DNA of 23,642 bases from a virus. The notes under the pieces are model-generated. The model was not told where the DNA came from. It saw only the letters and a list, made by a program, of their open reading frames with translations, and did no database searches. The DNA is taken from the IMG/VR virus record IMGVR_UViG_3300046698_000534, positions 1-23,642 of that record; one strand, 5' to 3'. How positions within the stretch are numbered: position 1 is the stretch's first letter; the number at the start of each line of letters is the position of its first letter. The translations under genes and the position numbers were made by a program. This document shows, one piece after another, positions 783 to 20,234 of the stretch.

Positions 783-986
783 TTAATTGATTAAATGATC
801 TTGTTCATAAAAATATAGATCACTTCGGTGTGAAATAGTTATTATTAATGTAAGATTAGAATCGGGAGTAAACCGCCACCTATCACCTTCAAAACATGCA
901 AGGCCTGTGTGGCCAAAATACACTCCTTCTCTATCAAAATTTTCATTAGCTATTGAACATCTAAAAATACCATTCATATCTATCAT
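783..986 (-). CDS. Small hypothetical protein (67 aa)
   Basis: A 67-residue protein that I do not recognise. It is mixed alpha/beta in appearance, with several aromatic residues (VYFGHTG, DRWRF, LYFYEQ) and no signal peptide or membrane segment. Its reality is supported by tight packing (3 bases before the phosphoesterase, 31 bases after ligA) and by a good sigma70-like promoter placed directly before the ATG. That promoter is TTGAAA, 17 bases, TATACT, then exactly 6 bases to the start codon, so the mRNA would begin at or next to the ATG. No Shine-Dalgarno is seen. An internal ATG three codons later is an alternative start but lacks this promoter spacing. Confidence 0.6.
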   Translation of the reverse strand: MIDMNGIFRCSIANENFDREGVYFGHTGLACFEGDRWRFTPDSNLTLIITISHRSDLYFYEQDHLIN

Positions 987-992
987 ACAAAG

Positions 993-1021
993 AGTATATG
1001 TTAGGTTGAATTAATTTTCAA
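993..1021 (-). promoter_or_regulatory. Sigma70-like promoter for the 67-aa gene and phosphoesterase
   Basis: On the minus strand, TTGAAA (1016-1021) is followed by 17 bases and TATACT (993-998). The ATG starts 6 bases further on. The -35 box overlaps the stop codon of ligA. The expected transcription start is at the start codon itself, giving a leaderless message. Confidence 0.55.
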
Positions 1022-2976
1022 GCAATTAATTTCAATAGCTCTGCTTCTGATATAACTTTAATCCCCTTTTCAGAGGCCTTGCGAAGTTTTCCGCTGCCTG
1101 AGTTCGGATCGGCTGCAACTACATGAGTTACAGCAGAACAAAATGTAGCAGAATATCCATGCCCAGCTTTAGTAATCAATTCTTCAAAATGGGCTTTAGG
1201 TTGTGAGAGTGATCCAGTTATACAGAACATATATGCACCCTCTTTGAGAGCTTTCTTAGGTGCTTTATATGTGATTTGCACACCATTCTTGATAAAGCGC
1301 TTGATATAATCCTTCTGTGAGTGAATATCAGCTTGGATACGTGCTGCAAGATTTGGAATTCCCGCTTGTACAGCAAACTTAGTAAGATTATTACTGTTAA
1401 TCCAATCATCAAGAGTGTCAAATTCACCTGGCACTGCTTCTTGAATCAGAACCACTCGACGCTTACCTAATCCAGATATCCCTAATGAACCAAGGAAGTC
1501 ACCTAATGTGAGTTCTTTCTTTTTATCAATCTCTTTCAAAATTTTATGTGCGCGAGAACCACCTAATCTTACACCACTACAAAATTGAAGATCAACCAAT
1601 CTTTCAATATCATTCCCCAATGTATAAAGATCAGCTGCGTCTTTTACATTTAAATACTTGATTAGTGCCTCAATTACACTCGTACTAACTCCTTTAATAT
1701 CAAGTGAAGATACATATTTGTCAATTCTACCTGAAACCACAGCAGGACAGTTATTATTCAAACAATAGATAGCTGAACTATCAACACCTGATGCATTTTC
1801 CTTATGCCCAACTTTTCCGTTACAAACAGGACACTTCTTTGGTTCTTCAATTTTCTGCCGGTTCTTCCCCTCTTTCAAAACTTCCATAATTCGAGGAATA
1901 ATATCACCTGCCTTGATAACATAAATTTCATCACCAATAGCTACTCCTAACGTTTCAATATTATTATAATTACAAAGATTAGCATTTTCTACATTTGCAA
2001 TACCTAATCGAATAGTATCAAAATTAGCAACGGGAGTAATAGTACCTGTATGACCAACTTGTAAATTTACACTTCGAAGTATAGTTTTTGCACCCTCAGC
2101 AGGAAACTTAATTGCAACTTGACCTTTTGGACATTCAGATGATTCACCTAGTTCAAGCTGGCGTTCAATATCATTTATTTTAATGACAATTCCATCAATC
2201 CAGAAAGGTAATTTAGGTCGCTCTTTTTGCTGTAGCAGATACCAATCCCATACTTCGGCGGCATCTCCGGTTTTGTAGGGAGCAACATCAAATCCCATAT
2301 TTTCCATGTTTTGCGATATTTCAAGCTCGGTATCACCAAATGGAGTTCCATCTTCATCAAAACACCTGAAAGCATACACCTTCAAATACTCTGATTCGGT
2401 ACCATCTTTCCTCCGAGCAATACCTACAGCGAGATTTCGTGGATTAGAAGTTAATTCAGGATCTACAGCCTTCCAATCATCCATTTCGAGAACAACTTCA
2501 CCTCGCACAAAACCCGAGAAAGTTTTATTATTACCCAACTGTACAGTTTTCGGTAGGTTCTTAAACTTGAGTGCATTTGCGGTCACATCTTCACCCACGA
2601 AACCATCACCACCAGAAATAACACAAACAAGTTTTCCATTTTTATATTCAAATGAGTAAGTACCGCCATCCATTTTGAAACTAGCATGAAGCAATTCTCC
2701 TCCGCAAATTCGAGGGGCTCCTTTCAACCACTTCAACCATTCGGCTTCATTTAACGCCTTTGAGAGTGAGTCCATAGGAATAGTATGCTTCCGCTTCTCA
2801 AGAATACTATCTCTGATTGCTACTCGGGTTTGAGTTAATCGTGAATTATTTGGATCAAGAGCCTTAAGTTGTTCCTTTAACTTATCATAATACGCGTCTT
2901 CAAAAATCGCATTTCCATCTGTATAATAAGTGTGGTTTGCCTGGTCAATTTTTTCTTCAAGTTCTTTTATGTTCAT
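1018..2976 (-). CDS. ligA: NAD+-dependent DNA ligase (LigA)
   Basis: A full-length NAD-dependent DNA ligase (652 residues; bacterial LigA is usually about 670). It seals 3'-OH/5'-phosphate nicks using NAD+. Domains in order: Ia NAD-binding start (HTYYTDG, DAYYDKL, residues 15-33); adenylation domain with nucleotidyl lysine K101 in KMDGG, RGEVVLE at 158-164, NPRNLAVGIARR at 178-189 and DGIVIK at 261-266; OB fold with QVGHTG-ITPVA near 306-317; a four-Cys zinc finger (C382, C385, C405, C410); helix-hairpin-helix region about 420-560; and a C-terminal BRCT domain (about 575-652). The usual TRGDG motif reads SGGDG at 121-125, and QVGRTG reads QVGHTG. Most T4-like phages use an ATP-dependent ligase instead, so this is a distinctive choice. 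It follows the 130-residue gene by 4 bases, suggesting co-transcription. Confidence 0.97.
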   Translation of the reverse strand: MNIKELEEKIDQANHTYYTDGNAIFEDAYYDKLKEQLKALDPNNSRLTQTRVAIRDSILEKRKHTIPMDSLSKALNEAEWLKWLKGAPRICGGELLHASFKMDGGTYSFEYKNGKLVCVISGGDGFVGEDVTANALKFKNLPKTVQLGNNKTFSGFVRGEVVLEMDDWKAVDPELTSNPRNLAVGIARRKDGTESEYLKVYAFRCFDEDGTPFGDTELEISQNMENMGFDVAPYKTGDAAEVWDWYLLQQKERPKLPFWIDGIVIKINDIERQLELGESSECPKGQVAIKFPAEGAKTILRSVNLQVGHTGTITPVANFDTIRLGIANVENANLCNYNNIETLGVAIGDEIYVIKAGDIIPRIMEVLKEGKNRQKIEEPKKCPVCNGKVGHKENASGVDSSAIYCLNNNCPAVVSGRIDKYVSSLDIKGVSTSVIEALIKYLNVKDAADLYTLGNDIERLVDLQFCSGVRLGGSRAHKILKEIDKKKELTLGDFLGSLGISGLGKRRVVLIQEAVPGEFDTLDDWINSNNLTKFAVQAGIPNLAARIQADIHSQKDYIKRFIKNGVQITYKAPKKALKEGAYMFCITGSLSQPKAHFEELITKAGHGYSATFCSAVTHVVAADPNSGSGKLRKASEKGIKVISEAELLKLIA

Positions 2977-2980
2977 AAAA

Positions 2981-3373
2981 CTATTTTGTTGCTAGTGCTT
3001 TTTTAATAATCTTCTCTGCTTCCCATATATGTATTTGATTTCCTGTTTGTTCGCCACCTTGTGGACAATGACCAAGTTTACCAATTATTAATAATGGCTC
3101 TTGAACATATATTAAAGCATCTCTCAAAACTTTCTCTCGTTTATTACTATGATACATCTCACTTTTTAACCGTTGTATCTCACTTTGTAAAGGAGCTGTT
3201 TTTGAATCTGCATATTCATCAAGAAGATAGTGTGCTACCTTTTCATCATCCTCATAATCCTCAATTGCTAAACTGGATTGAAGTCTACCTGTGTGAATTG
3301 GTGGTGATGCATCCCAACCACCAACTATTGCCGCAAAATATGATAATAATTTTTCTCTTGATGTTGTTTTCAT
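2981..3373 (-). CDS. Hypothetical protein with a central coiled-coil segment
   Basis: A 130-residue protein that I cannot assign. The middle (about residues 55-90, rich in Glu, Lys, Leu and Ser with heptad-like spacing, e.g. LQSEIQRLKSEM) looks like a short coiled coil. The N-terminus has a Gly/Pro-rich stretch (GGWDASPP) and the C-terminus a helix ending in Lys. No catalytic motif, signal peptide or membrane segment is visible. It lies 4 bases before ligA and appears to be the first gene of a ligA transcript, since a sigma70-like promoter (TTGACT, 16 bases, TATATT, 6 bases, ATG) sits directly before its start codon. The context suggests expression with ligA but says nothing more about function. 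Confidence 0.7.
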   Translation of the reverse strand: MKTTSREKLLSYFAAIVGGWDASPPIHTGRLQSSLAIEDYEDDEKVAHYLLDEYADSKTAPLQSEIQRLKSEMYHSNKREKVLRDALIYVQEPLLIIGKLGHCPQGGEQTGNQIHIWEAEKIIKKALATK

Positions 3374-3379
3374 ATTCTA

Positions 3380-3407
3380 AATATATAGGTTTATTTGAAT
3401 TAGTCAA
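3380..3407 (-). promoter_or_regulatory. Sigma70-like promoter for the 130-aa gene and ligA
   Basis: On the minus strand, TTGACT (3402-3407), 16 bases, TATATT (3380-3385), then 6 bases to the ATG at 3373. It is in the 49-base gap between two leftward genes. The -10 to ATG distance is identical to that at four other genes in the window. Confidence 0.6.
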
Positions 3408-3422
3408 TATTAAAATGTGGTA

Positions 3423-4175
3423 TTAATCATGTCTTACTGTTCCTCTATATAAGTCGAGAATATCATTGTAAGGTGATTTCCATTCTTTAATGGTTAATTT
3501 TCCTTCTTCAATAATGACATAGTGATGTAAATGCTTATCAAAATTTGAATCAATACAAATATTTTCTTTATTAATAATATAAGGCTCCCGTGCAGGTGTA
3601 TGACCAAAAAGTTGTTTTATATTATCTATAGGTTCGAAGTCCTCATTTACGTCGGCCCACGTTAAACCTCCATACTCAGCTCTCCCACCGCGGGATCTAC
3701 CCGCAGCAAAAACCCATGAAGCTCGAGGATCAGCTAATGCAGATTTTACCTCTATCTCTAACCATGCAACAATATCATTCATGTTATGTTTGATATTTTC
3801 TGGTACTTTATAAGCTGTTAAACCAGCATGAGTTAACAACCATCCTTCAACCACATGAAATAATTTGAATTTCTTCCAATCACGCTTAGTTAAAATTTTA
3901 TTAACAGCTTCATCTTTTGCTAAGGTCCAACCACTACATGATAGAGCAGGCCAACCATTGAATAGATGACTTTGATCATGATTCCCAAGAATGAAGATAT
4001 AATCTTTCAAATGAGATTTTAACCATTTTGCAGTTTCAACATTTTGCTCGACTGTGTCAGAAAATTGATGAAATAGGTCTCCGAGACAGACAACTTTATC
4101 AGCTTTTACCACATCGATAATAGCTTGTGCTTCCTTGTGAGCTGTGTGTATGTCTCCAATTACAAGTGTTTTCAT
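3423..4175 (-). CDS. Calcineurin-like Ser/Thr-phosphatase-type metallophosphoesterase (second of two)
   Basis: A 250-residue metallophosphoesterase with a canonical motif set: GDIH at residues 7-10, GDLF at about 32-35, GNHDQ at about 64-68, a conserved His in LLTHAGLT, and FGHTPARE near the C-terminus. This GDIH/GNHD/GHTP pattern is closest to the PrpE/ApaH/lambda-phosphatase-like branch of the family, and unlike the first phosphoesterase at 63-779. Substrates could be phosphoproteins, dinucleoside polyphosphates or nucleic-acid ends. The gene starts 2 bases after the 60-residue repeat gene ends. A GGGGA Shine-Dalgarno-like run sits about 9 bases before the ATG, inside the end of that gene, so translation is probably coupled. 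Family is firm; substrate unknown. Confidence 0.9.
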   Translation of the reverse strand: MKTLVIGDIHTAHKEAQAIIDVVKADKVVCLGDLFHQFSDTVEQNVETAKWLKSHLKDYIFILGNHDQSHLFNGWPALSCSGWTLAKDEAVNKILTKRDWKKFKLFHVVEGWLLTHAGLTAYKVPENIKHNMNDIVAWLEIEVKSALADPRASWVFAAGRSRGGRAEYGGLTWADVNEDFEPIDNIKQLFGHTPAREPYIINKENICIDSNFDKHLHHYVIIEEGKLTIKEWKSPYNDILDLYRGTVRHD

Positions 4176-4177
4176 TT

Positions 4178-4360: not shown

Positions 4361-4560
4361 GGTGTTACCTCCTTTGTAATTATTTCAACAGCTTTTTCAC
4401 GCGTATCTGCTTCAAATGGTCTCACAACTTGTTGTACAAAATTATTACCTTCACAATCATCAGTATAATCTTTGTGATCACCAAACCATCGTTTTACTTG
4501 AATACTTCCGTTTTGATGTAAGTATCCCCACCACATTATTTTGTTCATTATTTCATTCAT
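4357..4560 (-). CDS. Conserved-looking small phage protein (67 aa)
   Basis: A 67-residue protein with an aromatic N-terminal half (MWWGYLHQNGSIQVKRWFGD) and an acidic C-terminal half. The YLHQNG-SIQVKRWFGD stretch resembles short conserved proteins I recall from large phage genomes, where no function is known; this is from memory only. The layout suggests a small beta-hairpin fold (polar turn HQNG between two strands). It starts 1 base after the RNA ligase gene ends, and its TGA stop overlaps the ATG of the next gene, so it belongs to one leftward unit with its neighbours. No Shine-Dalgarno is seen before its ATG (AAAAAAATAAT leader), which suggests coupling to the ligase gene. Confidence 0.7.
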   Translation of the reverse strand: MNEIMNKIMWWGYLHQNGSIQVKRWFGDHKDYTDDCEGNNFVQQVVRPFEADTREKAVEIITKEVTP

Positions 4561-4561
4561 A

Positions 4562-5656: not shown

Positions 5657-5662
5657 AGTTTC

Positions 5663-5692
5663 ATTGTATGAACAAGGAAGGATTAAACACAA
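5663..5692 (-). promoter_or_regulatory. Sigma70-like promoter for the RNA ligase gene
   Basis: On the minus strand, TTGTGT (5687-5692), 18 bases, TACAAT (5663-5668), then 6 bases to the ATG at 5656. It lies in the 77-base gap after the Thg1-like gene. It supports the internal start codon and predicts a leaderless message. The -35 box is weak. Confidence 0.45.
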
Positions 5693-5733: not shown

Positions 5734-6750
5734 CTAAGGATTCTTTGTATAAGGAGATACATACTCCGGATAACAATCTTTAGCTATCTCTTTAAATAAT
5801 TCTGAAGACATCTTATTAGATCGTGAGCAAACCCCTTTAGGAGTAAATTCAAGTTCTGGTCCTCCAACTGTTTCAACTTTAGGAACTGACAACTGTGGAA
5901 GAGATGGAATTAGCTTTTGTAACCGATCAGCCGACTCTTGAAATTTCCATGCTGATTCAATTTTCCATCTTGTAAAAGTAAAATCTTCTTTAAATGTTTC
6001 AGGATCCTCTTCAATAGCATCTCTCATTTTCTGATTAGGAAATGCTGGAGGCATAAACTCAGTTTTTTTAGAAATAATTCTTCCAAACTTATGTCTTGGA
6101 TCAAATTCTTCCCAATCAATATTTTTTAATAAAATCATTCGGTGTTGCTCTCTACCATTTTTGCCTTGAAGTTCTTTTATACTATATAAAGATTGAGCCA
6201 TACTACTTAGACTATTCCTTGCTGTATCTTTATTTCTCCAAACGAAGTAGTTATAAACTTCAACTGGTTCTGAAATTGTAAACACACGAGCATCAAAATA
6301 TGCACATTTTTCTAATCTTAAACAACCATCAACATATGTTTGACTAAGTCCACAAGGATTTGATTGTTTATTTTCATATATTTTACGTCGCATCCTAAGT
6401 TTATTAAATTCAGCTGTCATCAAACTTGCTGCAACAGAAGTAATTTTCTGAATATTTCCATCAAACCATGCACAAGTATTAATCTCAGCAAAATCTGTTA
6501 ACAAAATTGAAATTTCATCTGATTGGATATATGCAAATTGAGCTCCTTGAATTTCAGGTAGAATAGCTCTAACAGCATTATCTAAATCCTGTTCAAATTT
6601 ATCATCAAAAGGTTTCTCTAAATTACGAGTATAAGTATGAAACGCTTTACCATCCAAACGAAGAATAGTATATGTGCGACGAGGAAGACAGTAACGAGTA
6701 CGATCTTCATATTGTAATTTCATCCTACTGCCTAATTCATCCTTATTCAT
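5734..6750 (-). CDS. tRNA(His) guanylyltransferase / Thg1-like 3'-5' polymerase
   Basis: A 338-residue member of the Thg1 family, enzymes that add nucleotides in the 3'-5' direction to tRNA 5' ends. Motifs seen: RLDGKAFHTYTRNLEKPFDD at 31-50, with the metal-binding Asp (D33); IQSDEISILL at 75-84, with the second acidic pair (D78, E79); the KITSVAASLMTAEFN helix; and the ARVF...YFVWRNKDTARNSL stretch typical of the second half of the domain. Bacterial and phage members (TLPs) usually repair 5'-truncated tRNAs rather than adding G-1. The protein is longer than a minimal domain (about 250), with an uncharacterised C-terminal 80 residues. It precedes the RNA ligase gene by 77 bases; together they suggest tRNA repair. 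The AT-rich leader lacks a Shine-Dalgarno. Confidence 0.92.
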   Translation of the reverse strand: MNKDELGSRMKLQYEDRTRYCLPRRTYTILRLDGKAFHTYTRNLEKPFDDKFEQDLDNAVRAILPEIQGAQFAYIQSDEISILLTDFAEINTCAWFDGNIQKITSVAASLMTAEFNKLRMRRKIYENKQSNPCGLSQTYVDGCLRLEKCAYFDARVFTISEPVEVYNYFVWRNKDTARNSLSSMAQSLYSIKELQGKNGREQHRMILLKNIDWEEFDPRHKFGRIISKKTEFMPPAFPNQKMRDAIEEDPETFKEDFTFTRWKIESAWKFQESADRLQKLIPSLPQLSVPKVETVGGPELEFTPKGVCSRSNKMSSELFKEIAKDCYPEYVSPYTKNP

Positions 6751-6753
6751 ATA

Positions 6754-7368: not shown

Positions 7369-8556
7369 TCATATTGCTGTACCAAATCTATCTCCAGTTA
7401 CACTATACATCATTGTTTCACCACCAAACACTCCATACATTATAATTTTTGGTGATTTATCTTTTGGCCACTTATTAGGTTTTAAACCGTTTGGATTTGA
7501 AACCCCATACATATAAGTATTCAAATCCTCTTTATACTGATCTTCATCTATAATTTTCGTTGATGAAAATTTATCAAAAATTGTTGTAGGTATAAGTTTA
7601 TCACAATCAGGATATTTAAAACAATCCCTACAAGTTTTTTTACCTGTTCCAAAACGAATATCTCTAAATTCTGTCTCCCAAATATCTATTAAAGATTTTT
7701 GTGTAACATTACCATAAGTAGTCATTTTCTTACAGTAGGATCTTTCAGATAAACATGCAACTACATCTCCATTATAAAGCACACCACAACTTCTCCAACC
7801 TGCACTACATACATGTTCATATTGAAGATTATCTGCAAACACAATAGTTTTGGAAGGTTTAATCTTTTCCCATAACATTTTAATACCTTCTTCAGGCAAT
7901 GCATTAGGACCAGTAGTAAGTTGTATTTGCCATAAAAGTTTTCTCTGGCCAATAAAATCTTTAATATCTTGAAGCTCCCAAATATTGTGCTGACCAAAAT
8001 TTGTTACAACAGTTATATTTTTTCCTTCACATTTAGAGTATAAAGAAAGGAGTTCACTGTAAAAACCTAATTCAGATTTACTATTTATAGATAAACCTAT
8101 TCTATCAAAAGATTTTGCAATTTTAGGATATTTTTGAATTAATGTACCATTAGTAACTGCTTTAACTTGGCACTTATAATCTTTCAAAGTTTTAATAATT
8201 TTCTTTAGAAGAGATTCAGAAAGAGTTCCTGGTTCACCGCCAGAAAGAGTAACTTCTTTTACTCCTGTTTGTCCTATTCTATATGCAATAATACAAAGAT
8301 CTTCATCTGATAATTGTCCTTGATTAATGATATCTTTTGATCCGCAGAAAGAACAATTCTTATTACAGTTTGAAGTTATCTCCCATAATACTTCTTCGAG
8401 GGTTAGTGGTGATTTTTGCATAGATTTTTTAATAGTATTATCTTCATCAGCATTAAATAGTATATTTAACAATTTATTATTATCAATAACATTTTTAGGA
8501 TATGGCAAACGTTCAGGTTTATCATTGACGGTTGCAACTCCATATAGTATAGTCAT
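7369..8556 (-). CDS. Radical SAM / SPASM-type protein with terminal YGV motifs
   Basis: A 395-residue radical SAM enzyme. The [4Fe-4S]-AdoMet motif is CNKNCSFC (C64, C68, C71), followed by SGGEP at 105-109. A C-terminal SPASM/twitch-like region carries C250, C257, G263 x4 C268, C275, the GNV-QKSLIDIW signature at 282-293, and CRDC-x5-C (C309, C312, C318); the last Cys of a full SPASM set is missing. SPASM enzymes mostly mature ribosomal peptides or modify proteins. The extra N-terminal 55 residues and the C-terminal tail (330-395) are unusual because they repeat a short motif: LYGV at 4-7, MYGV at 349-352, MYGV at 373-376 and MYSV at 383-386. The gene follows queE by 3 bases, so it may share regulation with the deazaguanine genes, but its substrate is unknown. 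Confidence 0.88.
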   Translation of the reverse strand: MTILYGVATVNDKPERLPYPKNVIDNNKLLNILFNADEDNTIKKSMQKSPLTLEEVLWEITSNCNKNCSFCGSKDIINQGQLSDEDLCIIAYRIGQTGVKEVTLSGGEPGTLSESLLKKIIKTLKDYKCQVKAVTNGTLIQKYPKIAKSFDRIGLSINSKSELGFYSELLSLYSKCEGKNITVVTNFGQHNIWELQDIKDFIGQRKLLWQIQLTTGPNALPEEGIKMLWEKIKPSKTIVFADNLQYEHVCSAGWRSCGVLYNGDVVACLSERSYCKKMTTYGNVTQKSLIDIWETEFRDIRFGTGKKTCRDCFKYPDCDKLIPTTIFDKFSSTKIIDEDQYKEDLNTYMYGVSNPNGLKPNKWPKDKSPKIIMYGVFGGETMMYSVTGDRFGTAI

Positions 8557-8559
8557 AAA

Positions 8560-9330
8560 TTATTTTCCTAAAGCCTGCTCATAAATTAGAATCTGTAAGC
8601 GAGGACTAAAATTAAATCCATGTTTTTTACACAACTCAGCAACCCATGGAGCTTTTTCTTTAAATTGTTTTGTTGTTGCACACTCAGGCATGAGCCATAT
8701 TTGCCTTCTATCAATTTTAAATTTATCAACATATTTTGTAAATAGTTCGTCTAAATCCTTCTCATTACAAATAACAAATTTAAAGGTGCTTGATTTATTT
8801 TGAGTATGCCATTCAAGTGCTTCTACAACATATCGCTTTTTCTCAGGATCACCATTATTGGAAAGCTTTGGGGAACAAATAAATGATGGTCGTAATGTAT
8901 CTACTTCATAAGGTGAATGATAATCATTTAGCCATTTACATTTTGGAATTAATGTAGCATTTGTTTCAAATTCAATATTTAAAGAAGTTTTCCATCTCTC
9001 TTGTGCACATTGACACCATTCAAAGAGATTTTTCTCCTGAATAAGAGCTTCGCCTCCGGTTAACTTAAAAATATCTCCTCTCTGTAGAAATGGAACAAAT
9101 TCTTTATCTTCAAATAACTTAAATAACTCTTCAAAGGTAAATTTATTCTTTACCTTCCATGCAACTGTACTATCACAACCATTCGGATTTTCAGGTGAAG
9201 CCCATCCAGAACAAGTAAGATTACAGAGAGATAAGCGCATGAATATAGCAGGCTTACCAATATTTTTACCTTCTCCTTCTATGGTACTAAAGATTTTGTC
9301 TGAAGAAAGATATATAATTTGTTCACTCAT
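8560..9330 (-). CDS. queE: 7-carboxy-7-deazaguanine synthase (QueE)
   Basis: A 256-residue radical SAM enzyme of the QueE type, which converts 6-carboxytetrahydropterin to 7-carboxy-7-deazaguanine. Evidence: an N-terminal FSTIEGEG substrate motif at 14-21, the FMRLSLCNLTC cluster start, TGGEAL near residue 95 (normally TGGEPL), and a late proline/aromatic C-terminus. The cluster cysteines appear as C36-x3-C40-x11-C52, with C52 in the GCDS context that normally follows the third Cys. Standard radical SAM enzymes have Cx3Cx2C, so an insertion of about nine residues is implied. QueE proteins with expanded motifs are known, which keeps the call firm. Neighbouring queD and folE in the same leftward block strongly support it. 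The start overlaps the stop of the 61-residue gene (ATGA). Confidence 0.9.
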   Translation of the reverse strand: MSEQIIYLSSDKIFSTIEGEGKNIGKPAIFMRLSLCNLTCSGWASPENPNGCDSTVAWKVKNKFTFEELFKLFEDKEFVPFLQRGDIFKLTGGEALIQEKNLFEWCQCAQERWKTSLNIEFETNATLIPKCKWLNDYHSPYEVDTLRPSFICSPKLSNNGDPEKKRYVVEALEWHTQNKSSTFKFVICNEKDLDELFTKYVDKFKIDRRQIWLMPECATTKQFKEKAPWVAELCKKHGFNFSPRLQILIYEQALGK

Positions 9331-9512
9331 AAATCTTCAATTCCATCACGAACTTCATCAGCATCCTTCGCAAGTCTTCTAAGTCGTTTACTAATATATG
9401 TCTCATCCTCACCAGTACAAAGACCACCGAGAGTTGCTGCATCTTTAACAACTTCAATCGGTGATGTAACAACATCAATAGCTGTTCCTAATAATTTTCC
9501 AAATAATCCCAT
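9327..9512 (-). CDS. Small conserved phage protein, MGLF...VTSPIEVVKD type
   Basis: A 61-residue protein. The N-terminal half is amphipathic and hydrophobic (LFGKLLGTAIDVVTSPIEVV), followed by ATLGGLCTGEDETYI and a charged helix (SKRLRRLAKDADEVRDGIEDL). I recall very similar short proteins with a TSPIEVVKD core in many tailed phages, always without known function. The single Cys and the Gly-Gly turn suggest a helix-turn-helix-like packing or membrane contact, which cannot be decided. It sits between queD and queE, 4 bases after the former, and overlaps the latter's ATG with its TGA, so it is co-translated with the deazaguanine genes even if unrelated in function. Confidence 0.75.
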   Translation of the reverse strand: MGLFGKLLGTAIDVVTSPIEVVKDAATLGGLCTGEDETYISKRLRRLAKDADEVRDGIEDL

Positions 9513-9516
9513 ATGT

Positions 9517-10104
9517 TTAATTAGTTATACTAAATTCTGCAGATGTTTTAGGTGTTTCTTTAAATGTAACACTTGAGACAGTCACTTTGAACTTCTCTAA
9601 TTCAGTTTTACATATACTAAAGACCCATTGTGCTAATCTCTCAGATGTTGGAACAAATGGAACTAATATAATTCCTTTTAAAACATCAGCTTCATAATCC
9701 TTTACACCTTCTAATATTCTCGGTGTCCAATAATTATGTTTATGGTTTTCAAAAGCGGGTTCTGTTAATGATGTTATGTGTTTCTTTGCTAAATTTGCCT
9801 TATAAATAAACGGTAGAGGTAAAAATATATTTTCAAGATAAGGATCCTCTACATCTAAAATCCATTTATGGTCCAGTTCTTCATCAATAAACCTTTTAAT
9901 GAAATTAAGGTTTTTGTAGTCGAAAACCATACTCTGTTCATTTAGAATAGTTCCTTCTAGTTGAACTATAAGTTGTCCGAAATGTCCGTGAATTGACTTA
10001 CATTTTGTAAGGTTGTCTAATGAAAGGCAAGTATTTAATACTTGATTATGTACTCGATGAGCATAATCAAAATCAAATGATTTAGAAATTTTCCATTTAT
10101 TCAT
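9517..10104 (-). CDS. queD: 6-carboxytetrahydropterin synthase (QueD), long form
   Basis: A 195-residue member of the 6-pyruvoyl-tetrahydropterin synthase family, converting dihydroneopterin triphosphate (the FolE product) to 6-carboxytetrahydropterin. Visible features: FDYAHR with zinc ligand H16, catalytic Cys C35 followed by IHGH with ligands H39 and H41, MVFDY at 59-63, LDH at 77-79 with the catalytic His, and PTSERLAQWV near the C-terminus. Typical QueD is about 120 residues. Here about 60 extra residues separate LDH from PTSE (roughly 90-150, with NHKHNYWTP and IILVPFVP), so it belongs to a longer-loop variant. The start overlaps the end of the upstream nucleotidyltransferase gene by 8 bases. 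It works between FolE and QueE in the preQ0 pathway. Confidence 0.92.
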   Translation of the reverse strand: MNKWKISKSFDFDYAHRVHNQVLNTCLSLDNLTKCKSIHGHFGQLIVQLEGTILNEQSMVFDYKNLNFIKRFIDEELDHKWILDVEDPYLENIFLPLPFIYKANLAKKHITSLTEPAFENHKHNYWTPRILEGVKDYEADVLKGIILVPFVPTSERLAQWVFSICKTELEKFKVTVSSVTFKETPKTSAEFSITN

Positions 10105-11149
10105 TATGTAATATTATAGATGCACAATGTATTGATTGCAATAATTTTCTCGCTGAGTCTTTAACAATTAGTGTTCTACGCTCATCAGCAGGAATATCCT
10201 TAAAATATTCAGCAAGCAGCTTTTGATATTTACCAATCAAAGGACTAGGCTTAACACCTAGAAAATCCATTATCTCATTTCCGTTCAAAATGATTTCGGT
10301 ATTAGTAGTAACTTCTTCTATCTTCTTTATTATTCTCCTTACTGCTTGCTTTGTTAAAAATCTCTCCTCATAATAAAGTAATGAAACTAACCCTCCAACC
10401 TTCTCTACTAAATTCAACAATTCATATGCATCAGAAGTATCTTCATTTTTCTTAATAGCTTCACGAGCATTTTTATTAATAGGTATACCTACAGCAATCT
10501 TATCCGGATTACCATACTTCCACATATTTGAATCAAACCGTGGTGAATTTGATATCCATGTTGCAACTCCTTCAGGAGTAAAAATAGCATCATTATTTAT
10601 AAATGCAGGATCTAATCCTAGAATATAGAGAGCAGTTTTAGGCTCAGTTGTGAGTTGAATGTTACACCAACCATTCTTTCTCTTCACTCTTTTATATAAT
10701 GCATAATCTGTAAATTTATATCCTATGGAACGAGCAAATGAACCTAAAAGGGCTGAAAAAGTTGTTCCATATCCGTAGAAGAGTTTTTTAAATTCCAATC
10801 CACCTTCCTTTACTACCAGAAAATCAATCATGTATCGCTGATCATCACCCAACAAATTATTCATAACAACCATCATCTGTGCTTTGTTTCCACTAGTCTC
10901 ACAAGCATAATCACTAAGTAGAATTTTCTCTCTCCAACATCCTATCTTTGGTACAAACAAAACATCTAAATCACCTGTAGTTTCCTTCTTACACTTCTTA
11001 AGAGTATTAGGAAAATGAAGATCTCCCAAATAACTAAATTCTTCAACTAACTTCTTTTCTAAGAGGGGTATTTTAGCAACAGGAATTCTTACCGGTTGTA
11101 ATTCAGGCGGAAGATATTTAAAAGCTCCTTTTGATTCTTGATTACTCAT
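10097..11149 (-). CDS. Pol-beta-like nucleotidyltransferase with a CCA-enzyme-like tail motif
   Basis: A 350-residue protein with polymerase-beta-type nucleotidyltransferase features: TGDLDVLF at 58-65 gives the paired metal-binding aspartates D60 and D62, and MIDFLVV at 107-113 supplies the likely third Asp (D109). The usual upstream Gly-Ser is less clear. Near the C-terminus LNGNEIMDFLGVKPSPLIGK (288-307) closely resembles the body/tail motif of class II CCA-adding enzymes and poly(A) polymerases. The region 175-215 is phage-specific and not recognised. Possible roles: tRNA 3'-end repair, or a template-independent polymerase. It lies in one transcript with the kinase and the separate CCA-type head protein, overlapping both neighbours by 8 bases. 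Fold is reasonably certain; substrate is inferred. Confidence 0.7.
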   Translation of the reverse strand: MSNQESKGAFKYLPPELQPVRIPVAKIPLLEKKLVEEFSYLGDLHFPNTLKKCKKETTGDLDVLFVPKIGCWREKILLSDYACETSGNKAQMMVVMNNLLGDDQRYMIDFLVVKEGGLEFKKLFYGYGTTFSALLGSFARSIGYKFTDYALYKRVKRKNGWCNIQLTTEPKTALYILGLDPAFINNDAIFTPEGVATWISNSPRFDSNMWKYGNPDKIAVGIPINKNAREAIKKNEDTSDAYELLNLVEKVGGLVSLLYYEERFLTKQAVRRIIKKIEEVTTNTEIILNGNEIMDFLGVKPSPLIGKYQKLLAEYFKDIPADERRTLIVKDSARKLLQSIHCASIILHNE

Positions 11150-13166: not shown

Positions 13167-13195
13167 ACAATAAGAAATATATGATTTTTATGCAA
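13167..13195 (-). promoter_or_regulatory. Sigma70-like promoter for the CCA-type gene cluster
   Basis: On the minus strand, TTGCAT (13190-13195), 17 bases, TATTGT (13167-13172), then 6 bases to the ATG at 13160. It lies in the 40-base gap before the block of genes leading to queD, queE and the radical SAM gene. The -35 and part of the spacer (TTGCAT, AAAATCATA) match the promoter at 20207-20234. Confidence 0.5.
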
Positions 13196-13482: not shown

Positions 13483-14235
13483 TTATTTATCTCTTACATG
13501 GGTTGATGCTTGACGGACAAAATTCATTAATTTATTACTTCTTAACTGTTTAGCTTTTTTCCATAAATCTAAAACTTCATCTGTTTTAGGAACGTATGGG
13601 AATAATTTAATAATTTCATTTTCATTTTCTGTATCTCTCCAAGTTTTCTTTGGAAGTCTATCTACAACTTCAGGAATATCTTTATCCCAACCTGGTTCTA
13701 AAACATCTTTATCTCCAGTAACATCTTTATCTCCAGAAAATGCTTTTGATTTTTCACTTGTAGTAAAATCTTTAGGTGATACTTTTTTTGGAGGTGATGC
13801 CTTATGTTTCTGATTTTCATCTTTTTCAAGATTTACAAAACAAGGATATTTTTCTGGATTTTCAAACCATTGAACAATAGCATCAAAAAATTCAACAATT
13901 GTAGCTGCATCCTTATCAATATCTAAACTATAATGAAAAGGAAAAGATCCGCTTGAAGATGCTTTATTGCGGCCAGGTTCATAAAAAAAATAACTAATAC
14001 TATTATTTTTAAATTTTAAATTAACAAATGGAAAAGAATGTTGTGGATAATTTAAATACCAAGTTAGTGAATATATATCACTCTCAAAGGATGTACAAGT
14101 CCATAATCCATATGGACTTGTAACTTCACTATCAACGAGAGCATTTCCTAATTGTTTAAAATATTCACCAGGTTCAGCAGAAAGTTTGCCCTCATTTAAC
14201 TTACAAAATTCATGGAATTTAATAATATCAGCCAT
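13483..14235 (-). CDS. Hypothetical protein with possible capsid-targeting N-terminus
   Basis: A 250-residue acidic protein that I cannot assign. The N-terminus (MADIIKFHEFCKLNEGK) resembles the capsid-targeting leaders of T4 internal proteins (pattern F-x-E-F followed by L/I-x-E and A or G). LNE-G at 13-16 matches the cleavage consensus of the T4 prohead protease. The first 130 residues look folded (WTCTSFESDIYSLTWYLNY, TIVEFFDAIVQWFENPEKYP). Residues 140-190 are low complexity with a GDKDV duplication (168-172, 174-178). The last 50 are a basic helix. If the leader is real, the protein would be packaged in the head. A weak late-like box (ATTAAATA) lies 6 bases before the ATG within an inverted repeat. 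Confidence 0.68.
   Translation of the reverse strand: MADIIKFHEFCKLNEGKLSAEPGEYFKQLGNALVDSEVTSPYGLWTCTSFESDIYSLTWYLNYPQHSFPFVNLKFKNNSISYFFYEPGRNKASSSGSFPFHYSLDIDKDAATIVEFFDAIVQWFENPEKYPCFVNLEKDENQKHKASPPKKVSPKDFTTSEKSKAFSGDKDVTGDKDVLEPGWDKDIPEVVDRLPKKTWRDTENENEIIKLFPYVPKTDEVLDLWKKAKQLRSNKLMNFVRQASTHVRDK
13484..13491 (-). promoter_or_regulatory. T4-type late promoter box (GATAAATA)
   Basis: GATAAATA on the minus strand, 7 bases before the ATG at 13476. It reads through the last codons and stop of the upstream gene (GAT AAA TAA). It matches the NATAAATA late-promoter form known from T4-like phages. Confidence 0.5.
13702..13736. repeat. 18-base direct tandem duplication
   Basis: Two adjacent copies of an 18-base unit (the first 17 bases are identical) inside the 250-residue gene. 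It encodes the GDKDV(T) duplication in the low-complexity linker. Probably replication slippage. Confidence 0.75.
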
Positions 14236-14237: not shown

Positions 14238-14261
14238 GAAGTATTTAATCAAAAATACTTC
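14238..14261. repeat. Perfect 9-base inverted repeat before the 250-aa gene
   Basis: GAAGTATTT, 6-base spacer, AAATACTTC. It occupies most of the 39-base gap between two leftward genes and ends 2 bases before the ATG at 14235. It is AT-rich and lacks a following T-run, so it is not a standard terminator; an operator or a start-site hairpin are alternatives. Confidence 0.5.
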
Positions 14262-14475: not shown

Positions 14476-14483
14476 TATTTATC
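14476..14483 (-). promoter_or_regulatory. T4-type late promoter box (GATAAATA)
   Basis: GATAAATA on the minus strand, 6 bases before the ATG at 14469. It overlaps the TAA stop of folE. Confidence 0.5.
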
Positions 14484-15162
14484 TCTTTGACATTTCAATA
14501 AATTTATAAAATTCAAAACGTGATTGTTCCTTCGGATCTAAGAAGGCACCTGATAATTTTGATGTCATCATTATAGAGTTTTGTTTTACTCCACGGTTGC
14601 AGGCACATTGGTGTTTACAAGATAAAAATACTGCAACACCTTTATTTTTTTCACATACTTTATTCAAATATGAAAACACCTGATTAGTCAGCGTTTCTTG
14701 CACTTGTGGTCGATGACTAAACCACTCAACGATTCGTCCGAGTTTGGAATAACCAAGAACTTTTCCCCTTTCTGCTGGTATGTAGCAAACATGAGCTTCG
14801 CCAGTGAAAGATAAAAAATGATGGCAACAGAGACTTACAACAGGTATTAAACCAGAATAAACTAATCCAGTATATGATTCATAAAAAGAATCTGAATCCT
14901 CATCTTGGTTATCATTTGTATTATCGAAAGCTGTTATAACAGGAGGTGCTGTATAGCACCCACTTATTAAGTCATTTACCATAGCTTTAGCAACACGCTT
15001 TGGTGTTCCACACATATGTAAATCATTTTTATAATCAAAACCTAAAGCTGTAAGAAATTCACCATACTTCTCTGCAGCATTTTCAATGATTTTTTGCTTT
15101 TCTTCTTCTGTTTTTGAAATACTATGATTTCCACGTTCTAAGAGATTAGATATTTTATTCAT
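14479..15162 (-). CDS. folE: GTP cyclohydrolase I (FolE)
   Basis: A 227-residue GTP cyclohydrolase I, which converts GTP to 7,8-dihydroneopterin triphosphate, the first step toward folate and 7-deazaguanines. Motifs: CGTPKRVAKA at 51-60, SLCCHHFLSFTGEAHVCYIP (110-129) with zinc ligands C112 and H115, VLGYSKLGRIVEWFSHRPQVQE (substrate and tetramer contacts, 135-156), and HQCACNRGVKQNS with zinc ligand C186. The usual CEHH motif reads CCHH, so a glutamate is replaced by C113. Length is normal for the family. With queD and queE in the same block, the likely use is preQ0 synthesis. A perfect TATAAT lies 7 bases before the ATG in the divergent gap with the rightward nucleotidyltransferase gene. 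Confidence 0.95.
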   Translation of the reverse strand: MNKISNLLERGNHSISKTEEEKQKIIENAAEKYGEFLTALGFDYKNDLHMCGTPKRVAKAMVNDLISGCYTAPPVITAFDNTNDNQDEDSDSFYESYTGLVYSGLIPVVSLCCHHFLSFTGEAHVCYIPAERGKVLGYSKLGRIVEWFSHRPQVQETLTNQVFSYLNKVCEKNKGVAVFLSCKHQCACNRGVKQNSIMMTSKLSGAFLDPKEQSRFEFYKFIEMSKR

Positions 15163-15169: not shown

Positions 15170-15198
15170 ATTATAAGAATTTAAATATGAATTTCCAG
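15170..15198 (-). promoter_or_regulatory. Probable promoter for folE
   Basis: On the minus strand, TATAAT (15170-15175) lies 7 bases before the ATG at 15162. A poor -35 (CTGGAA, 15193-15198) is 17 bases upstream. It shares a 58-base divergent gap with a late box on the other strand. Confidence 0.4.
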
Positions 15199-15207: not shown

Positions 15208-15215
15208 GATAAATA
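15208..15215 (+). promoter_or_regulatory. T4-type late promoter box (GATAAATA)
   Basis: GATAAATA on the plus strand, exactly 5 bases before the GTG start at 15221. It supports GTG as the start and predicts transcription beginning at that codon. Confidence 0.5.
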
Positions 15216-17080: not shown

Positions 17081-17093
17081 TGTATGTTAATAT

Positions 17094-18164
17094 TTAATGG
17101 AAGTTTATCTCTATACCTTTGCGTGTTCCACTATTATCAATTGCTAAATTTGAACGAAATCTGCCAACATCTACTATTTGTTTATATACAGATAATACAT
17201 TCTTATCAAGCTTATTTGATGGGAAGTAAAAAGCATATGCATCTTTTGTGCTCTTATTTACAGATAGTAAATGTTTAAATTTGTGTTCATTTTGATAACA
17301 ACTTAATTGAATTGCCAAAATGAGATTTACTAAAACTTTACGTTCTTTATTTTTAAGAGGTTTGTTAATATTAAACTTTGAAAATATATTACTAAGACCT
17401 TTCTTTAAAAGACAAATATCAGTTTTTATTAATTCCTGTGGACTAACATGTACTGCAACATTTATCAATTCTTTAATATTAAGACAATCATTATAAAATA
17501 CATTCTGAAGAACTTCGTTCCAGCTATTGGATTCAGAAATTCCAACGTATTTACCAACTATTTTTTTTGCTCGTGATTTAAATAACAAAGCATTATTACC
17601 TGAACCTAATCTACCATATGTACTCTTAACTTCAACATCTCCTATATCAGTAATAACAAGATCTCCTCGTGCTCCTTTCTTTGCATTTGTAAGAGATGTT
17701 AAACAAATTTCACCAGGGCCAATTCCAACCTGATTAACACATGTAGTTACAGTCCAAAGTTCATCCACTAATTTAACTATTTGTTCATGTGGATATAAAC
17801 CTTTTAACCCTTGTTCAAACATATTATAAAGATTGAAAGGCTTATGTAATTCTAAATAGTGTGAGAAAAAACGATAAGAATTTTTATTTTTGGCAAATTG
17901 AGTAAGTTTTTTTAAATTTAAATCAGGAATCTGCATAAAGGTTTCAATAACAGGTGTAAAAATATTTCTTTCATCTCTTTTTACATCCCATCCACCTTTT
18001 TCGAGAAGTGTTGAAATAATAGATTTTAAACCACCTTCTCCATGTCCAATTATTCTATTACGAATGAGTTTATAATCAGGTTCAGAGATTGAGCCAATGA
18101 AAGAAGGCTTTTTTACCTTAGGAAGCTTTGCATAAATATGAACAAGCTCTGATTTTTGATTCAT
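17094..18164 (-). CDS. Hypothetical protein with a possible PD-(D/E)XK signature
   Basis: A protein of 356 residues from the chosen ATG. The central stretch GIGPGEICLTSLTNAKKGARGDLVITDIGDVEVKSTYGRLG (about 145-190) contains GDL followed by EVK, the D...ExK spacing seen in PD-(D/E)XK nucleases, but the fold is not certain. I have the impression of similar proteins in other T4-like phages, without function. The N-terminal third is helical and basic; the C-terminus is a helical repeat-like region. Start choice: the ATG at 18164 gives an unremarkable N-terminus (MNQKSELVHIYAKL). A TTG at 18197, 8 bases after an AGG, would add 11 residues and cannot be excluded. Confidence 0.7.
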   Translation of the reverse strand: MNQKSELVHIYAKLPKVKKPSFIGSISEPDYKLIRNRIIGHGEGGLKSIISTLLEKGGWDVKRDERNIFTPVIETFMQIPDLNLKKLTQFAKNKNSYRFFSHYLELHKPFNLYNMFEQGLKGLYPHEQIVKLVDELWTVTTCVNQVGIGPGEICLTSLTNAKKGARGDLVITDIGDVEVKSTYGRLGSGNNALLFKSRAKKIVGKYVGISESNSWNEVLQNVFYNDCLNIKELINVAVHVSPQELIKTDICLLKKGLSNIFSKFNINKPLKNKERKVLVNLILAIQLSCYQNEHKFKHLLSVNKSTKDAYAFYFPSNKLDKNVLSVYKQIVDVGRFRSNLAIDNSGTRKGIEINFH

Positions 18165-18212
18165 ATACGCGCTTATTTCACATTTTTTATGAATCAAGCT
18201 TACTACCTAATA

Positions 18213-18557
18213 TTACGTATTTTGATCAACAATAGTTTGAATTCTACAAAGAATTTCATCAGCATTGTGAGATGTAACTTCTTCAGCAAAAATAGATCTA
18301 TCTTGTTCAGATATTTGTTCAGGATTAATAGAAAGTGCTTTTAATGCAACTTCAATAAGAAAACGTTTTCCTTCTGAAGTTAATTTTTCAGGTTCGTCTT
18401 GTTCTGGTGGTTGTTCTTCTTGTCCAAAATCTCCTTGTGGATTTTGTTGAACTTCACCAAGACCAGATGGAGCATCTACTGGTGCTCGTAAATCTTCTTC
18501 TGTTAAAAGATATTCTGCTCCTGCTTTTACTAATAGTGTATTAAATTTACTTTTCAT
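18213..18557 (-). CDS. Hypothetical acidic protein (114 aa), Gln/Pro/Glu-rich linker
   Basis: A 114-residue acidic protein. The N-terminus (MKSKFNTLLVKAGAEYLLTEEDL) resembles short leaders of many T4-like phage proteins (KF-(N/D)-TL...). Residues 27-57 are a low-complexity Gly/Gln/Pro/Glu linker (QQNPQGDFGQEEQPPEQDEPE). The C-terminal half is an alpha-helical domain (GKRFLIEVALKALSI, ADEILCRIQTIVDQ). The start ATG shares its first base with the stop of the upstream 93-residue gene (TAATG), so the two are translationally coupled and probably act together. A structural or scaffold role would fit but is unproven. Confidence 0.68.
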   Translation of the reverse strand: MKSKFNTLLVKAGAEYLLTEEDLRAPVDAPSGLGEVQQNPQGDFGQEEQPPEQDEPEKLTSEGKRFLIEVALKALSINPEQISEQDRSIFAEEVTSHNADEILCRIQTIVDQNT

Positions 18558-18838
18558 TAACGTGTAATTGGTTGAGTAACTGCTTGTTGTAATTTCTGAG
18601 TGGCAGGCTGTGCAACTAATTTAAGTTGTTGTTTTCTACGTGCTGCTAAATCAGCTAAACGTTTTTGTTCAGGATCAGCTTTTGTAGGATCTGCTGCAAC
18701 ATTATCAACTGCATCTGTTACTGCTTCTTTTTCAGGTTCAGTTAATTGTGTTGTTTTATTAGCTTGATTTGATGCTAGCATTTCACAATAAATATCTTTT
18801 AAAGTCGATTCGACTAATGTATCAAACTTTTCCATCAT
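18557..18838 (-). CDS. Hypothetical helical protein (93 aa), late-gene context
   Basis: A 93-residue protein with N-terminus MMEKFDTLVESTLKDIYCEML, the same KF-D-TL style as its neighbour, and an LVE-S site at 8-11. It continues as Ala/Asp/Lys/Gln-rich helix (EPEKEAVTDAVDNVAADPTKADPEQKRLADLAARRKQ) and ends in Gln/Pro-rich ITR. Composition suggests a prohead-core or scaffold-like protein; that is inference. There are two consecutive ATG codons. A CATAAATA late-type box ends exactly 5 bases before the first of them, so the transcript would start at the first ATG. It is coupled to the 114-residue gene by a one-base overlap. Confidence 0.68.
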   Translation of the reverse strand: MMEKFDTLVESTLKDIYCEMLASNQANKTTQLTEPEKEAVTDAVDNVAADPTKADPEQKRLADLAARRKQQLKLVAQPATQKLQQAVTQPITR

Positions 18839-18843
18839 GTAAA

Positions 18844-18851
18844 TATTTATG
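18844..18851 (-). promoter_or_regulatory. T4-type late promoter box (CATAAATA)
   Basis: CATAAATA on the minus strand, exactly 5 bases before the first ATG at 18838. It is in the 138-base gap after the 185-residue gene, the largest gap of the window. Confidence 0.55.
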
Positions 18852-18864
18852 CTTTTCAGAAGAA

Positions 18865-18879
18865 ATTCCGTCGGAGAAT
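18865..18879 (-). terminator. Weak terminator-like hairpin after the 185-aa gene
   Basis: On the minus strand, an interrupted ATT-C...GG-AAT stem around GAC is followed by TTTCTTCT. It lies between the end of the 185-residue gene and the late box. The stem is short with a bulge, so it is only a candidate. The rest of the gap 18839-18976 shows no gene. Confidence 0.25.
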
Positions 18880-18976
18880 TTATAATTTAAAATGATAGGA
18901 AAGAAACGAGATTGATAGAATACCATATCTTCCTCCCTTTGTTAATTTCATTTATTCGTAGATTAAAATATATCAA

Positions 18977-19534
18977 CTAGTTGACCAATAAATTATTTCG
19001 ACTATTACTATTTAGTTGATGTTGTAATAGTGTTAGATTATTATTAAGAGTAAATTTTAACACTTTAGCAAATGTATAATAATCATCAAATTCACGGGAT
19101 AGAATGGTTAGTTTATTTGTTAAATCTTTTCCTTCACCTGTTTGTTTTTCAATATGATGAATTAGTTCAGTAAAAGTAAATTTAGAACAGTAAATTTTAA
19201 TAGGTAATACATTTTTAACTTTTTTGATAATTTTAACAATTTCCTGAATGGTTTTAAATTTTGGAAAATAATCAAATAGTTCAATTTGTTTTAGTTCAAA
19301 TGGATTAAAATACAAAATTTTCTTTTCAGTAGATTTCTTTTCCGTAAAAATTACACAAATTTCAGAAACAATATGATGATAAAAGAATTTCTTAACATCA
19401 GGTGAAATATTTTTTGTTCGTAGAAGATGGTAGGTATGTAAATGATTGATTATATCTACACAAACATCACCTTTAATTATTTCTGTGAAATTAATTATCT
19501 CAAAATTATATTGTGAAAAGGTTTTACAAATCAC
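18977..19534 (-). CDS. Hypothetical protein (185 aa), GTG start
   Basis: A 185-residue protein not recognised. It is rich in Phe, Ile, Lys and His (TYHLLRTKN, KFFYHHIVSEICVIF) and predicted to alternate helices and strands; no signal peptide, transmembrane segment or catalytic motif stands out. The start is a GTG that overlaps the TGA of the Pth2-like gene (GTGA); no ATG lies near, so GTG is favoured. It is followed by a 138-base gap with a possible terminator, so it ends its transcript. Base composition is as AT-rich as the neighbourhood. Confidence 0.65.
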   Translation of the reverse strand: MICKTFSQYNFEIINFTEIIKGDVCVDIINHLHTYHLLRTKNISPDVKKFFYHHIVSEICVIFTEKKSTEKKILYFNPFELKQIELFDYFPKFKTIQEIVKIIKKVKNVLPIKIYCSKFTFTELIHHIEKQTGEGKDLTNKLTILSREFDDYYTFAKVLKFTLNNNLTLLQHQLNSNSRNNLLVN

Positions 19535-19983
19535 GGATGAAGTTTTAAGTGTTCAAACCAGCCCTCAATTTCTGTTTTTTCTCCAAAAATATATGAACAT
19601 GTTAATTGTTGAATAGAAATAATAACTGTTTTACCATCTTCAGAAAAAGTGTGTTGATAATTATAATTTGGATGGTCATGTACCATTTGATAAATTTCAA
19701 ATGGTACACTTAGACGATAATCAGGATCAATTATGTGATCTGCAGCTATCTGTGGAAAAGAGTTTTTCAAAAGTTGAAATATAGTATCAATCTGTAGACC
19801 AATAGCACCTAACACAATTACAGTTCCAAACCCTTGCTTTGTTTCCTTTTGCCACTCTTTTACTTCTTTTCGTTTTCCATACTTTTCAATAAAAGCATTT
19901 GCTGCATGTGAAGCTTGAGCCATCGCTCGACCAGGAGACATGCTTTGAATATCAGTCCGCATTAGGATGTAGAGCACTTTCAT
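19531..19983 (-). CDS. Peptidyl-tRNA hydrolase 2 (Pth2)-like protein
   Basis: A 150-residue protein with the Pth2 N-terminal pattern: KVLYILMRTDIQSMSPGRAMAQASHAANAF at 2-31, equal to the family's R-x-D-x-x-M-x-x-G-(K/R)-x-A-x-Q-x-x-H-A signature, then GFGTVIVLGA at 51-60. Pth2 enzymes cleave peptidyl-tRNA, recycling tRNA from stalled ribosomes. The usual C-terminal T-x-x-G-x-x-T segment is not obvious; instead the end is divergent (HPNYNYQHTF, IISIQQLTCSYIFG). I start it at the ATG at 19983 (AAAGG about 8 bases upstream; 1 base after the preceding stop). A longer in-frame start at 20079 would overlap the upstream gene and is not family-like. Confidence 0.7.
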   Translation of the reverse strand: MKVLYILMRTDIQSMSPGRAMAQASHAANAFIEKYGKRKEVKEWQKETKQGFGTVIVLGAIGLQIDTIFQLLKNSFPQIAADHIIDPDYRLSVPFEIYQMVHDHPNYNYQHTFSEDGKTVIISIQQLTCSYIFGEKTEIEGWFEHLKLHP

Positions 19984-19984
19984 G

Positions 19985-20200
19985 TTAAAACCTTTTTCCT
20001 TCCCAAATAGGGGTAATAATTTGTATTGAACCACTTCCCATAGATATAATCCCTTGTCGCGGTTTTCCGTAAGAATCATTACATTCCATCAATAAGCGTT
20101 GAAGTTGTTCTTGTATATGTCTCTTTGTTCCAGTAATTGCAACAATTAATTGACATTCAGTTGGATTAGCATGATCAGGTGTATCAAATTCAATATTCAT
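19985..20200 (-). CDS. Small hypothetical protein (71 aa)
   Basis: A 71-residue protein not recognised. A strand-like start (CQLIVAITGT), an amphipathic helix (RHIQEQLQRLLMECNDSY) and a C-terminal strand pair (SGSIQIITPIWEGKRF) suggest a small alpha/beta fold of beta-alpha-beta type. It lies directly before the Pth2-like gene, one base apart, so the two are coupled. A strong sigma70-like promoter (TTGCAT, 16 bases, TATAAT, 6 bases, ATG) precedes it. Confidence 0.65.
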   Translation of the reverse strand: MNIEFDTPDHANPTECQLIVAITGTKRHIQEQLQRLLMECNDSYGKPRQGIISMGSGSIQIITPIWEGKRF

Positions 20201-20206
20201 ACTATC

Positions 20207-20234
20207 ATTATAGATAGTTTATGATTTTATGCAA
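20207..20234 (-). promoter_or_regulatory. Sigma70-like promoter for the 71-aa and Pth2-like genes
   Basis: On the minus strand, TTGCAT (20229-20234), 16 bases, perfect TATAAT (20207-20212), then exactly 6 bases to the ATG at 20200. A 6-base inverted repeat (ACTATC/GATAGT) overlaps the -10 and might be an operator. The best promoter match in the window. Confidence 0.65.

Follow-up and report, generated by a model that had tools for sequence, protein, structure and literature searches.

Promoters of host and T4-late type lie one base apart at start codons in an uncultured T4-like phage lineage and predict leaderless mRNAs

Introduction

Where does an mRNA begin when its promoter ends only a few bases before the start codon? 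The question is raised by the viral record IMGVR_UViG_3300046698_000534, a contig that we analysed over its whole length (23,642 bases; G+C content 31.5%) and refer to as the window. An initial annotation, made from the letters of the window, had noticed sigma70-like promoters ending exactly six bases before the start codons of unrelated genes, and had predicted leaderless mRNAs whose first base would be the A of the ATG or a close neighbour. Leaderless mRNAs occur in bacteria and phages, for example in mycobacteria and at lambda cI; the phage cases known to us are single genes. Here we describe two promoter classes held close to start codons, one of sigma70 type and one of T4 late type, and argue that in an uncultured T4-like lineage many transcription units very likely express their first gene from a leaderless or near-leaderless mRNA, at both stages of infection.

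Results

Positioned sigma70-type promoters in the window

We write d for the number of bases between the end of a promoter box and the start codon. Inspection of the upstream strings bore out all six sites of the initial annotation in position and distance. Five, all on the minus strand, have d = 6: TTGAAA-17-TATACT (993–1,021) before ATG 986 of a 67-residue gene (783–986), TTGACT-16-TATATT (3,380–3,407) before ATG 3,373 of a 130-residue gene, TTGTGT-18-TACAAT (5,663–5,692) before ATG 5,656 of a gp63-like RNA ligase, TTGCAT-17-TATTGT, with a weak −10, (13,167–13,195) before ATG 13,160 of a CCA-adding enzyme, and TTGCAT-16-TATAAT (20,207–20,234) before ATG 20,200 of a 71-residue open reading frame (ORF). 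This last ORF overlaps another (19,531–20,079) by 95 bases and has no family match, which makes it the most doubtful gene among the five. The sixth site, also on the minus strand, is a TATAAT with a poor −35 (TGGAAA-16; 15,170–15,197) at d = 7 before the folE ATG at 15,162. To these we add TTGCAA-17-TATAAT (10,113–10,141, minus strand), at d = 8 before ATG 10,104 of QueD and within the end of the upstream gene.

Placement was assessed at 36 hand-set starts against 2,000 shuffles of the upstream DNA, counting a TTG plus −10 match of at least 7/12 or at least 8/12. The total number of promoter-like matches in the window is not above chance (97, shuffle mean 97.4). Their position is: under the 7/12 rule, five genes have a match at d = 6 (shuffle mean 0.12), none at d = 7 and one, QueD, at d = 8. 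No shuffle reached five genes at d = 6, and only 1 of the 2,000 reached five at any single distance from 4 to 30; under the 8/12 rule, the four genes at d = 6 were again matched by no shuffle. The position of the matches is thus non-random, while their number is at the level of chance. Because the thresholds were chosen after the sites were known, the fair test lies in the relatives.

A second, late-type class in the window

The window holds a further class that the initial annotation missed. Six window starts are preceded, at d = 5–7, by TAAATA, the core word of T4 late promoters (shuffle mean 0.24, maximum 3 in 2,000). On the minus strand it occurs at 13,484–13,489 (d = 7, ATG 13,476), 14,242–14,247 (d = 6, ATG 14,235), 14,476–14,481 (d = 6, ATG 14,469), 18,844–18,849 (d = 5, ATG 18,838) and 21,044–21,049 (d = 7, ATG 21,036, in the 17-base gap to a divergent uvsY-like gene). 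The plus-strand copy at 15,210–15,215 lies at d = 5 before GTG 15,221 of a nucleotidyltransferase-like gene divergent from folE. Two of the six boxes overlap the stop codon of the upstream gene (those before 13,476 and 14,469, the latter overlapping that of folE); the other four do not.

The gap at 21,037–21,053 separates the divergent genes starting at 21,036 (minus) and 21,054 (plus, UvsY-like), and leaves almost no room for leaders if both are transcribed from it.

Both classes peak at the same distances in relatives

A search of the phage collection for near-identical DNA gave no match for the window, nor did three single-protein scans turn up a relative. Its protein families point to a T4-like phage: UvsY-like (phrog_231), a UvsW-like helicase, a gp63-like RNA ligase and a RusA-like resolvase, the first three being T4 core genes. 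On this evidence the window is part of the genome of an uncultured T4-like phage. Relatives were located through its FolE and RusA-like proteins, the nearest being G001 (28,205 bases; folE 78%, RusA-like 48%), which carries T4-like gp41, gp43, gp46, gp47, UvsX and gp55. T4 core genes across the relatives comprise gp17, gp18, gp20, gp21, gp23, gp43, gp46, gp47, gp55 and UvsX. The first set consists of the window and seven relatives (675 genes), some fetched in part (G002, 20,000 of 22,330 bases; G007, 80,000 of 84,477; G011, 40,000 of 44,794; G013, 40,000 of 44,482) and the others whole. G009 was dropped as 99.9% identical to part of G008, and G005, linked through FolE only and without the pattern, was also dropped.

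A second set came from a capsid (gp23) profile scan that returned 80 contigs, 43 group-like (at least 57% identity) and 37 cyanophage-like (32–35%). After removal of two near copies, 41 of the 43 group loci (426 genes) were scored under the rules of the first set (8/12), with the 37 cyanophage-like contigs (361 genes; G+C 0.375, 0.370 in the group) as control. A quick capsid tree sets the group apart from all other sequences by a branch with 100% support. The window holds no capsid gene, so its place in this capsid-defined clade rests on G001 and G002. Pooled, the two sets amount to 49 contigs and 1,101 genes.

The initial annotation had suggested looking for a peak at six bases on a wider scale, and the peak is present in both sets. 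In the first, TTG/−10 matches number 0 at d = 4 and 6, 28, 17, 13, 16, 9, 15 and 8 at d = 5–12, falling to about two per distance beyond 20; in the 41 group contigs they number 9, 15 and 5 at d = 5, 6 and 7, with d = 6 the highest of all distances. The onset between d = 5 and d = 6 is sharp in the first set (6 versus 28) and softer in the second (9 versus 15), and the pooled counts for d = 4–8 are 2, 15, 43, 22 and 16. The spacing of 'exactly 6' therefore stands as the mode and not as a strict rule, the early boxes tailing to about d = 12. TAAATA behaves likewise, with 1 at d = 4, 21, 21 and 25 at d = 5, 6 and 7 and 5 at d = 8 in the first set; 47, 32 and 12 at d = 5, 6 and 7 in the second (0, 0 and 2 in the cyanophage-like controls); and 2, 68, 53, 37 and 10 at d = 4–8 when pooled. 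The leaderless reading is thus supported by the d = 6 peak across relatives; as first framed it was too narrow, having left out a late-type class of the same geometry. A word count made with no prior choice of word ranks TAAATA first in six of six sets (pooled, 72 versus 3.0 expected) and also finds TATAAT enriched (21 versus 2.2).

TAAGTA too is enriched at d = 5–7 (13 versus 0.72 expected) and precedes gp13 or gp21 where TAAATA is absent (L067, L071 and others); it is perhaps a variant late box.

We excluded an artefact in which an upstream TAA stop codon makes the TAAATA word, since the peak holds in the 585 genes that have no upstream gene in the preceding 25 bases: here TAAATA counts are 39, 30 and 25 at d = 5, 6 and 7, 94 in all against at most 15 for any other TAANNN word. 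The same genes bear on an alternative in which the promoters are real and were pushed up to the genes by compaction alone, so that transcription would start 1–6 nucleotides upstream or at variable positions and much translation would come from long-leader read-through. In its favour, intergenic gaps are small, the sigma70 boxes extend to d = 12 and many boxes fall inside or close to the end of the preceding gene, which is within 25 bases in 64 of 158 late-box genes. Compaction alone, however, predicts no drop after d = 7, and late boxes fall from 37 to 10 at the next base; the peak is no less sharp where no upstream gene is near; and the cyanophage-like contigs, equally compact, never carry TAAATA at d = 5–6 and hold it mostly at d = 20–42. 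We regard this explanation as unlikely.

The two classes differ in −35 element, register and gene class

Among 146 −10 boxes at d = 6–12, TTG stands at spacers of 16 and 17 in 25 and 19 cases and at a spacer of 18 in 2. No such enrichment at 16–17 was seen for −10 boxes at d = 0–4 or d = 20–31. Before 67 TAAATA boxes there is no clear TTG enrichment (5, 0 and 0 at spacers of 16, 17 and 18; up to 3 at other spacers). The −10 element of sigma70 promoters ends at −7. T4 late promoters are described in a passage of PMC2988020 as having no −35 and an 8-bp box that starts at −13 and ends at −6. Given these end points, a transcription start at the A of the ATG should place late boxes at d = 5 and early boxes at d = 6. 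The observed onsets are d = 5 and d = 6, one base apart, as expected if +1 is the A of the ATG for both.

The classes also sort by gene function, late boxes going with virion genes and sigma70-type promoters with replication genes. A late box at d = 5–7 precedes 9 of 17 gp13, 5 of 15 gp20 and 13 of 31 gp21 genes, and none of the gp41, gp43 or uvsX genes. Sigma70-type promoters precede gp41 (3/5 at d = 6–8), gp43 (1/7 at d = 6–8, 4/7 at d = 9–12) and uvsX (1/6 and 3/6, respectively); a single gp20 of 15 has a sigma70 match. Close late boxes are rare at gp4 (1/25) and gp23 (1/36), most of which have neither promoter class and are probably internal to operons. A tblastn search with gp55 of Pelagibacter phage HTVC008M, the T4-type late sigma factor, found a homologue in all eight T4-like relatives tested (G001, G002, G007, G008, G009, G011, G012 and G013).

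TAnnTTTG is the Bacteroidota-type promoter; we considered it as the early class and rejected it, since it shows no positional peak in the 675 genes.

These differences weigh on a second alternative, in which the boxes are an A/T-rich translation signal beside the start codon, of the sort found in hosts that rarely rely on Shine–Dalgarno (SD) sequences, and only look like promoters. The group is indeed A/T-rich before starts everywhere, and SD sequences are lacking at operon-internal genes too. Such a signal would not account for a −35 TTG at the right spacer in one class only, for two words that sort by gene class, for the excess of TAAATA over all other TAANNN words or for onsets that differ by one base. 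We rate it marginally below compaction.

Start codons and translation signals

SD cores are nearly absent from promoter-bearing genes in the pooled set (2 of 158 genes with a late box and 2 of 77 with a sigma70 promoter, against 72 of 780 others). The initial annotation had contrasted the lack of SD sequences at its promoter genes with their presence at several internal genes; the lack is upheld, and the contrast proves to be mostly background, SD cores being rare group-wide (7.0% of all group genes, 4.4–7.4% in control windows; 4 of 35 in the window). ATG starts 156 of the 158 late-box genes and 75 of the 77 sigma70 genes, counts that are biased because the gene caller prefers ATG.

Alone among the conserved genes checked, gp23 often has an SD sequence (16 of 36 contigs, for example L062, L063 and L066), so the hosts may use SD sequences; these may have been kept for the capsid gene.

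That the start codons are misassigned, with true starts downstream behind ordinary leaders, is very improbable: a simple rule was used (first ATG after the upstream gene) and the ORF at 20,200 is doubtful, but gp21 proteins start at a Met beside the box, their N termini align from that Met in nine sequences with d = 5, and TAAATA-5-ATG also occurs at annotated starts of HTVC008M.

Comparison with cultured phages

The late promoters of T4, which are served by gp55, gp33 and gp45, resemble those of the group in their TAAATA core, the lack of a −35 and a position upstream of virion genes; a gp55 homologue is likewise encoded in the relatives. T4 differs in that its box stands at d of about 27–28 (50 kb scanned) with an SD sequence in between, whereas the group has d = 5–7 and no SD sequence. 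For cyanophage S-PM2, the late box is given in an excerpt of PMC2984593 as NATAAATA, which is of T4 type, as in the group; over 50 kb of S-PM2 it is never closer than d = 24, and the S-SKS1 and S-PM2 stretches have none at d = 5–7.

HTVC008M comes nearer. TAAATA lies at exactly d = 5 before 10 of its 179 called genes, among them gp2, gp4, gp48, gp25, gp3 and the tape measure gene; these lack an SD sequence except gp4, where the preceding bases are close to one. Its gp18, gp20, gp21, gp23 and gp45 have SD-like leaders, and, unlike in the group, such leaders are its rule (SD cores at 42% of genes versus 7%). Its capsid is about 35% identical to those of the group. In the stretches examined, Pelagibacter phage Mosig and Methylophilales phage Melnitz each carry the box at d = 5 before a single gene. 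The close-box mode thus exists as a minority in all three phages.

A capsid scan of genome contigs found distant relatives only (10 loci, best 37% identity, with titles of many phyla), and the best-listed phage isolate has a capsid 34.5% identical. In all nine of the genome-contig loci scored, TAAATA lies mainly further out; single copies stand at d = 5 in L147 and at d = 2 in L145.

Other genes of the window

The window also encodes an NAD-dependent DNA ligase, the CCA-adding enzyme, a tRNAHis guanylyltransferase, FolE, QueD and QueE. At its DEC(H) motif the UvsW-like ORF (21,730–22,881, plus strand) gives way to an intein splicing (Hint) domain (PF14890 and PF01079, scores slightly below the curated cut-offs), after which it ends in a stop. 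An open frame that overlaps it (22,796–23,641, plus strand) leaves the contig end and resembles a nuclease-like insert. The ORF is perhaps a split-intein 'fractured' uvsW with its C-terminal half outside the contig.

FolE, QueD, a QueE-like protein and a radical SAM/SPASM protein (7,369–10,104 and 14,479–15,162, minus strand) make up a partial 7-deazaguanine pathway; G001 has a QueC-like ORF, judged by eye, at 6,381–7,097 of L004. The guanylyltransferase (Thg1, PF04446; 5,734–6,750, minus strand) adjoins the RNA ligase and, with the CCA-adding enzyme a short distance away, completes a set resembling tRNA repair. The 210-kb relative G008 has about 14 tRNA genes and, at 683–1,144 of L023 (minus strand), a tmRNA gene whose predicted tag is ADEEMLLAA.

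Discussion

We propose the following scheme. At early and replication genes, host sigma70-type polymerase would act at TTG-16/17-TATAAT, whose −10 (−12 to −7) typically ends at d = 6 before the ATG. At virion genes, a gp55-type late polymerase would act at TAAATA, which matches positions −11 to −6 in the TATA box of T4 late promoters and lacks a −35, at d = 5 and less often 6–7. Both geometries would set +1 on or beside the A of the AUG, and the ribosome would take the 5′-terminal AUG with no SD contact.

Several observations weigh against this scheme. The 5′ ends at start codons are predicted from box distance only. The tail of early boxes to about d = 12, most marked in G008 and G012, would give many early mRNAs leaders of 1–6 nucleotides. 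Late boxes at d = 5–7 are absent from 12 of the 49 contigs, many of them short, and are few in G011 (1 of 41 genes) and G013 (2 of 45). With SD sequences rare in the whole group, their absence at promoter genes says little by itself. The core of the 8-bp TATAAATA box is strongly enriched, and the two bases before it, part of the T4 consensus, are not conserved above background. No gp33 homologue was found in the relatives with a 69-residue HTVC008M candidate as query, a short and fast-changing protein, and tblastn with HTVC008M queries found neither gp55 nor gp33 in the window fragment.

A broader proposition is that throughout the T4-like lineage, for which we found no isolate, leaderless expression has been adopted for the leading gene of most transcription units, early and late, with the gp55-type promoter re-sited so that +1 is the AUG and SD sequences kept mainly at gp23. 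We hold this tentatively, at a little short of an even chance.

Leaderless mRNAs and T4-type late promoters are each known, and the group's predicted transcripts resemble the former in having +1 at the AUG by promoter placement, no SD sequence and ATG starts. They depart from known leaderless cases in that the prediction covers promoters of both host-sigma and phage-sigma type throughout a T4-like lineage. This systematic union, with the two classes one base apart relative to the AUG, appears to be new. No paper on leaderless mRNAs together with T4-like phages or late promoters was found by title in the open literature, subscription papers lying outside that scope. A passage of the AR9 paper (PMC5312081) calls phage transcripts 'often leaderless', and in the sections of PMC9004378 consulted the word occurs only within a reference title.

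Textbook system though it is, T4 late transcription appears to have an evolvable leader geometry, the box standing about 27 bases before the AUG in T4 itself and 5 here. The one-base offset between promoter classes predicts the transcription start to the base, and the prediction of 5′ ends at the AUG is open to test in cultured HTVC008M on Pelagibacter. For annotators, it suggests setting starts in this group by promoter distance and not by SD sequences. If leaderless expression does extend across the lineage, initiation at a 5′-terminal AUG would be the default for its virion genes, and would perhaps keep working when canonical initiation becomes limiting in the infected host.

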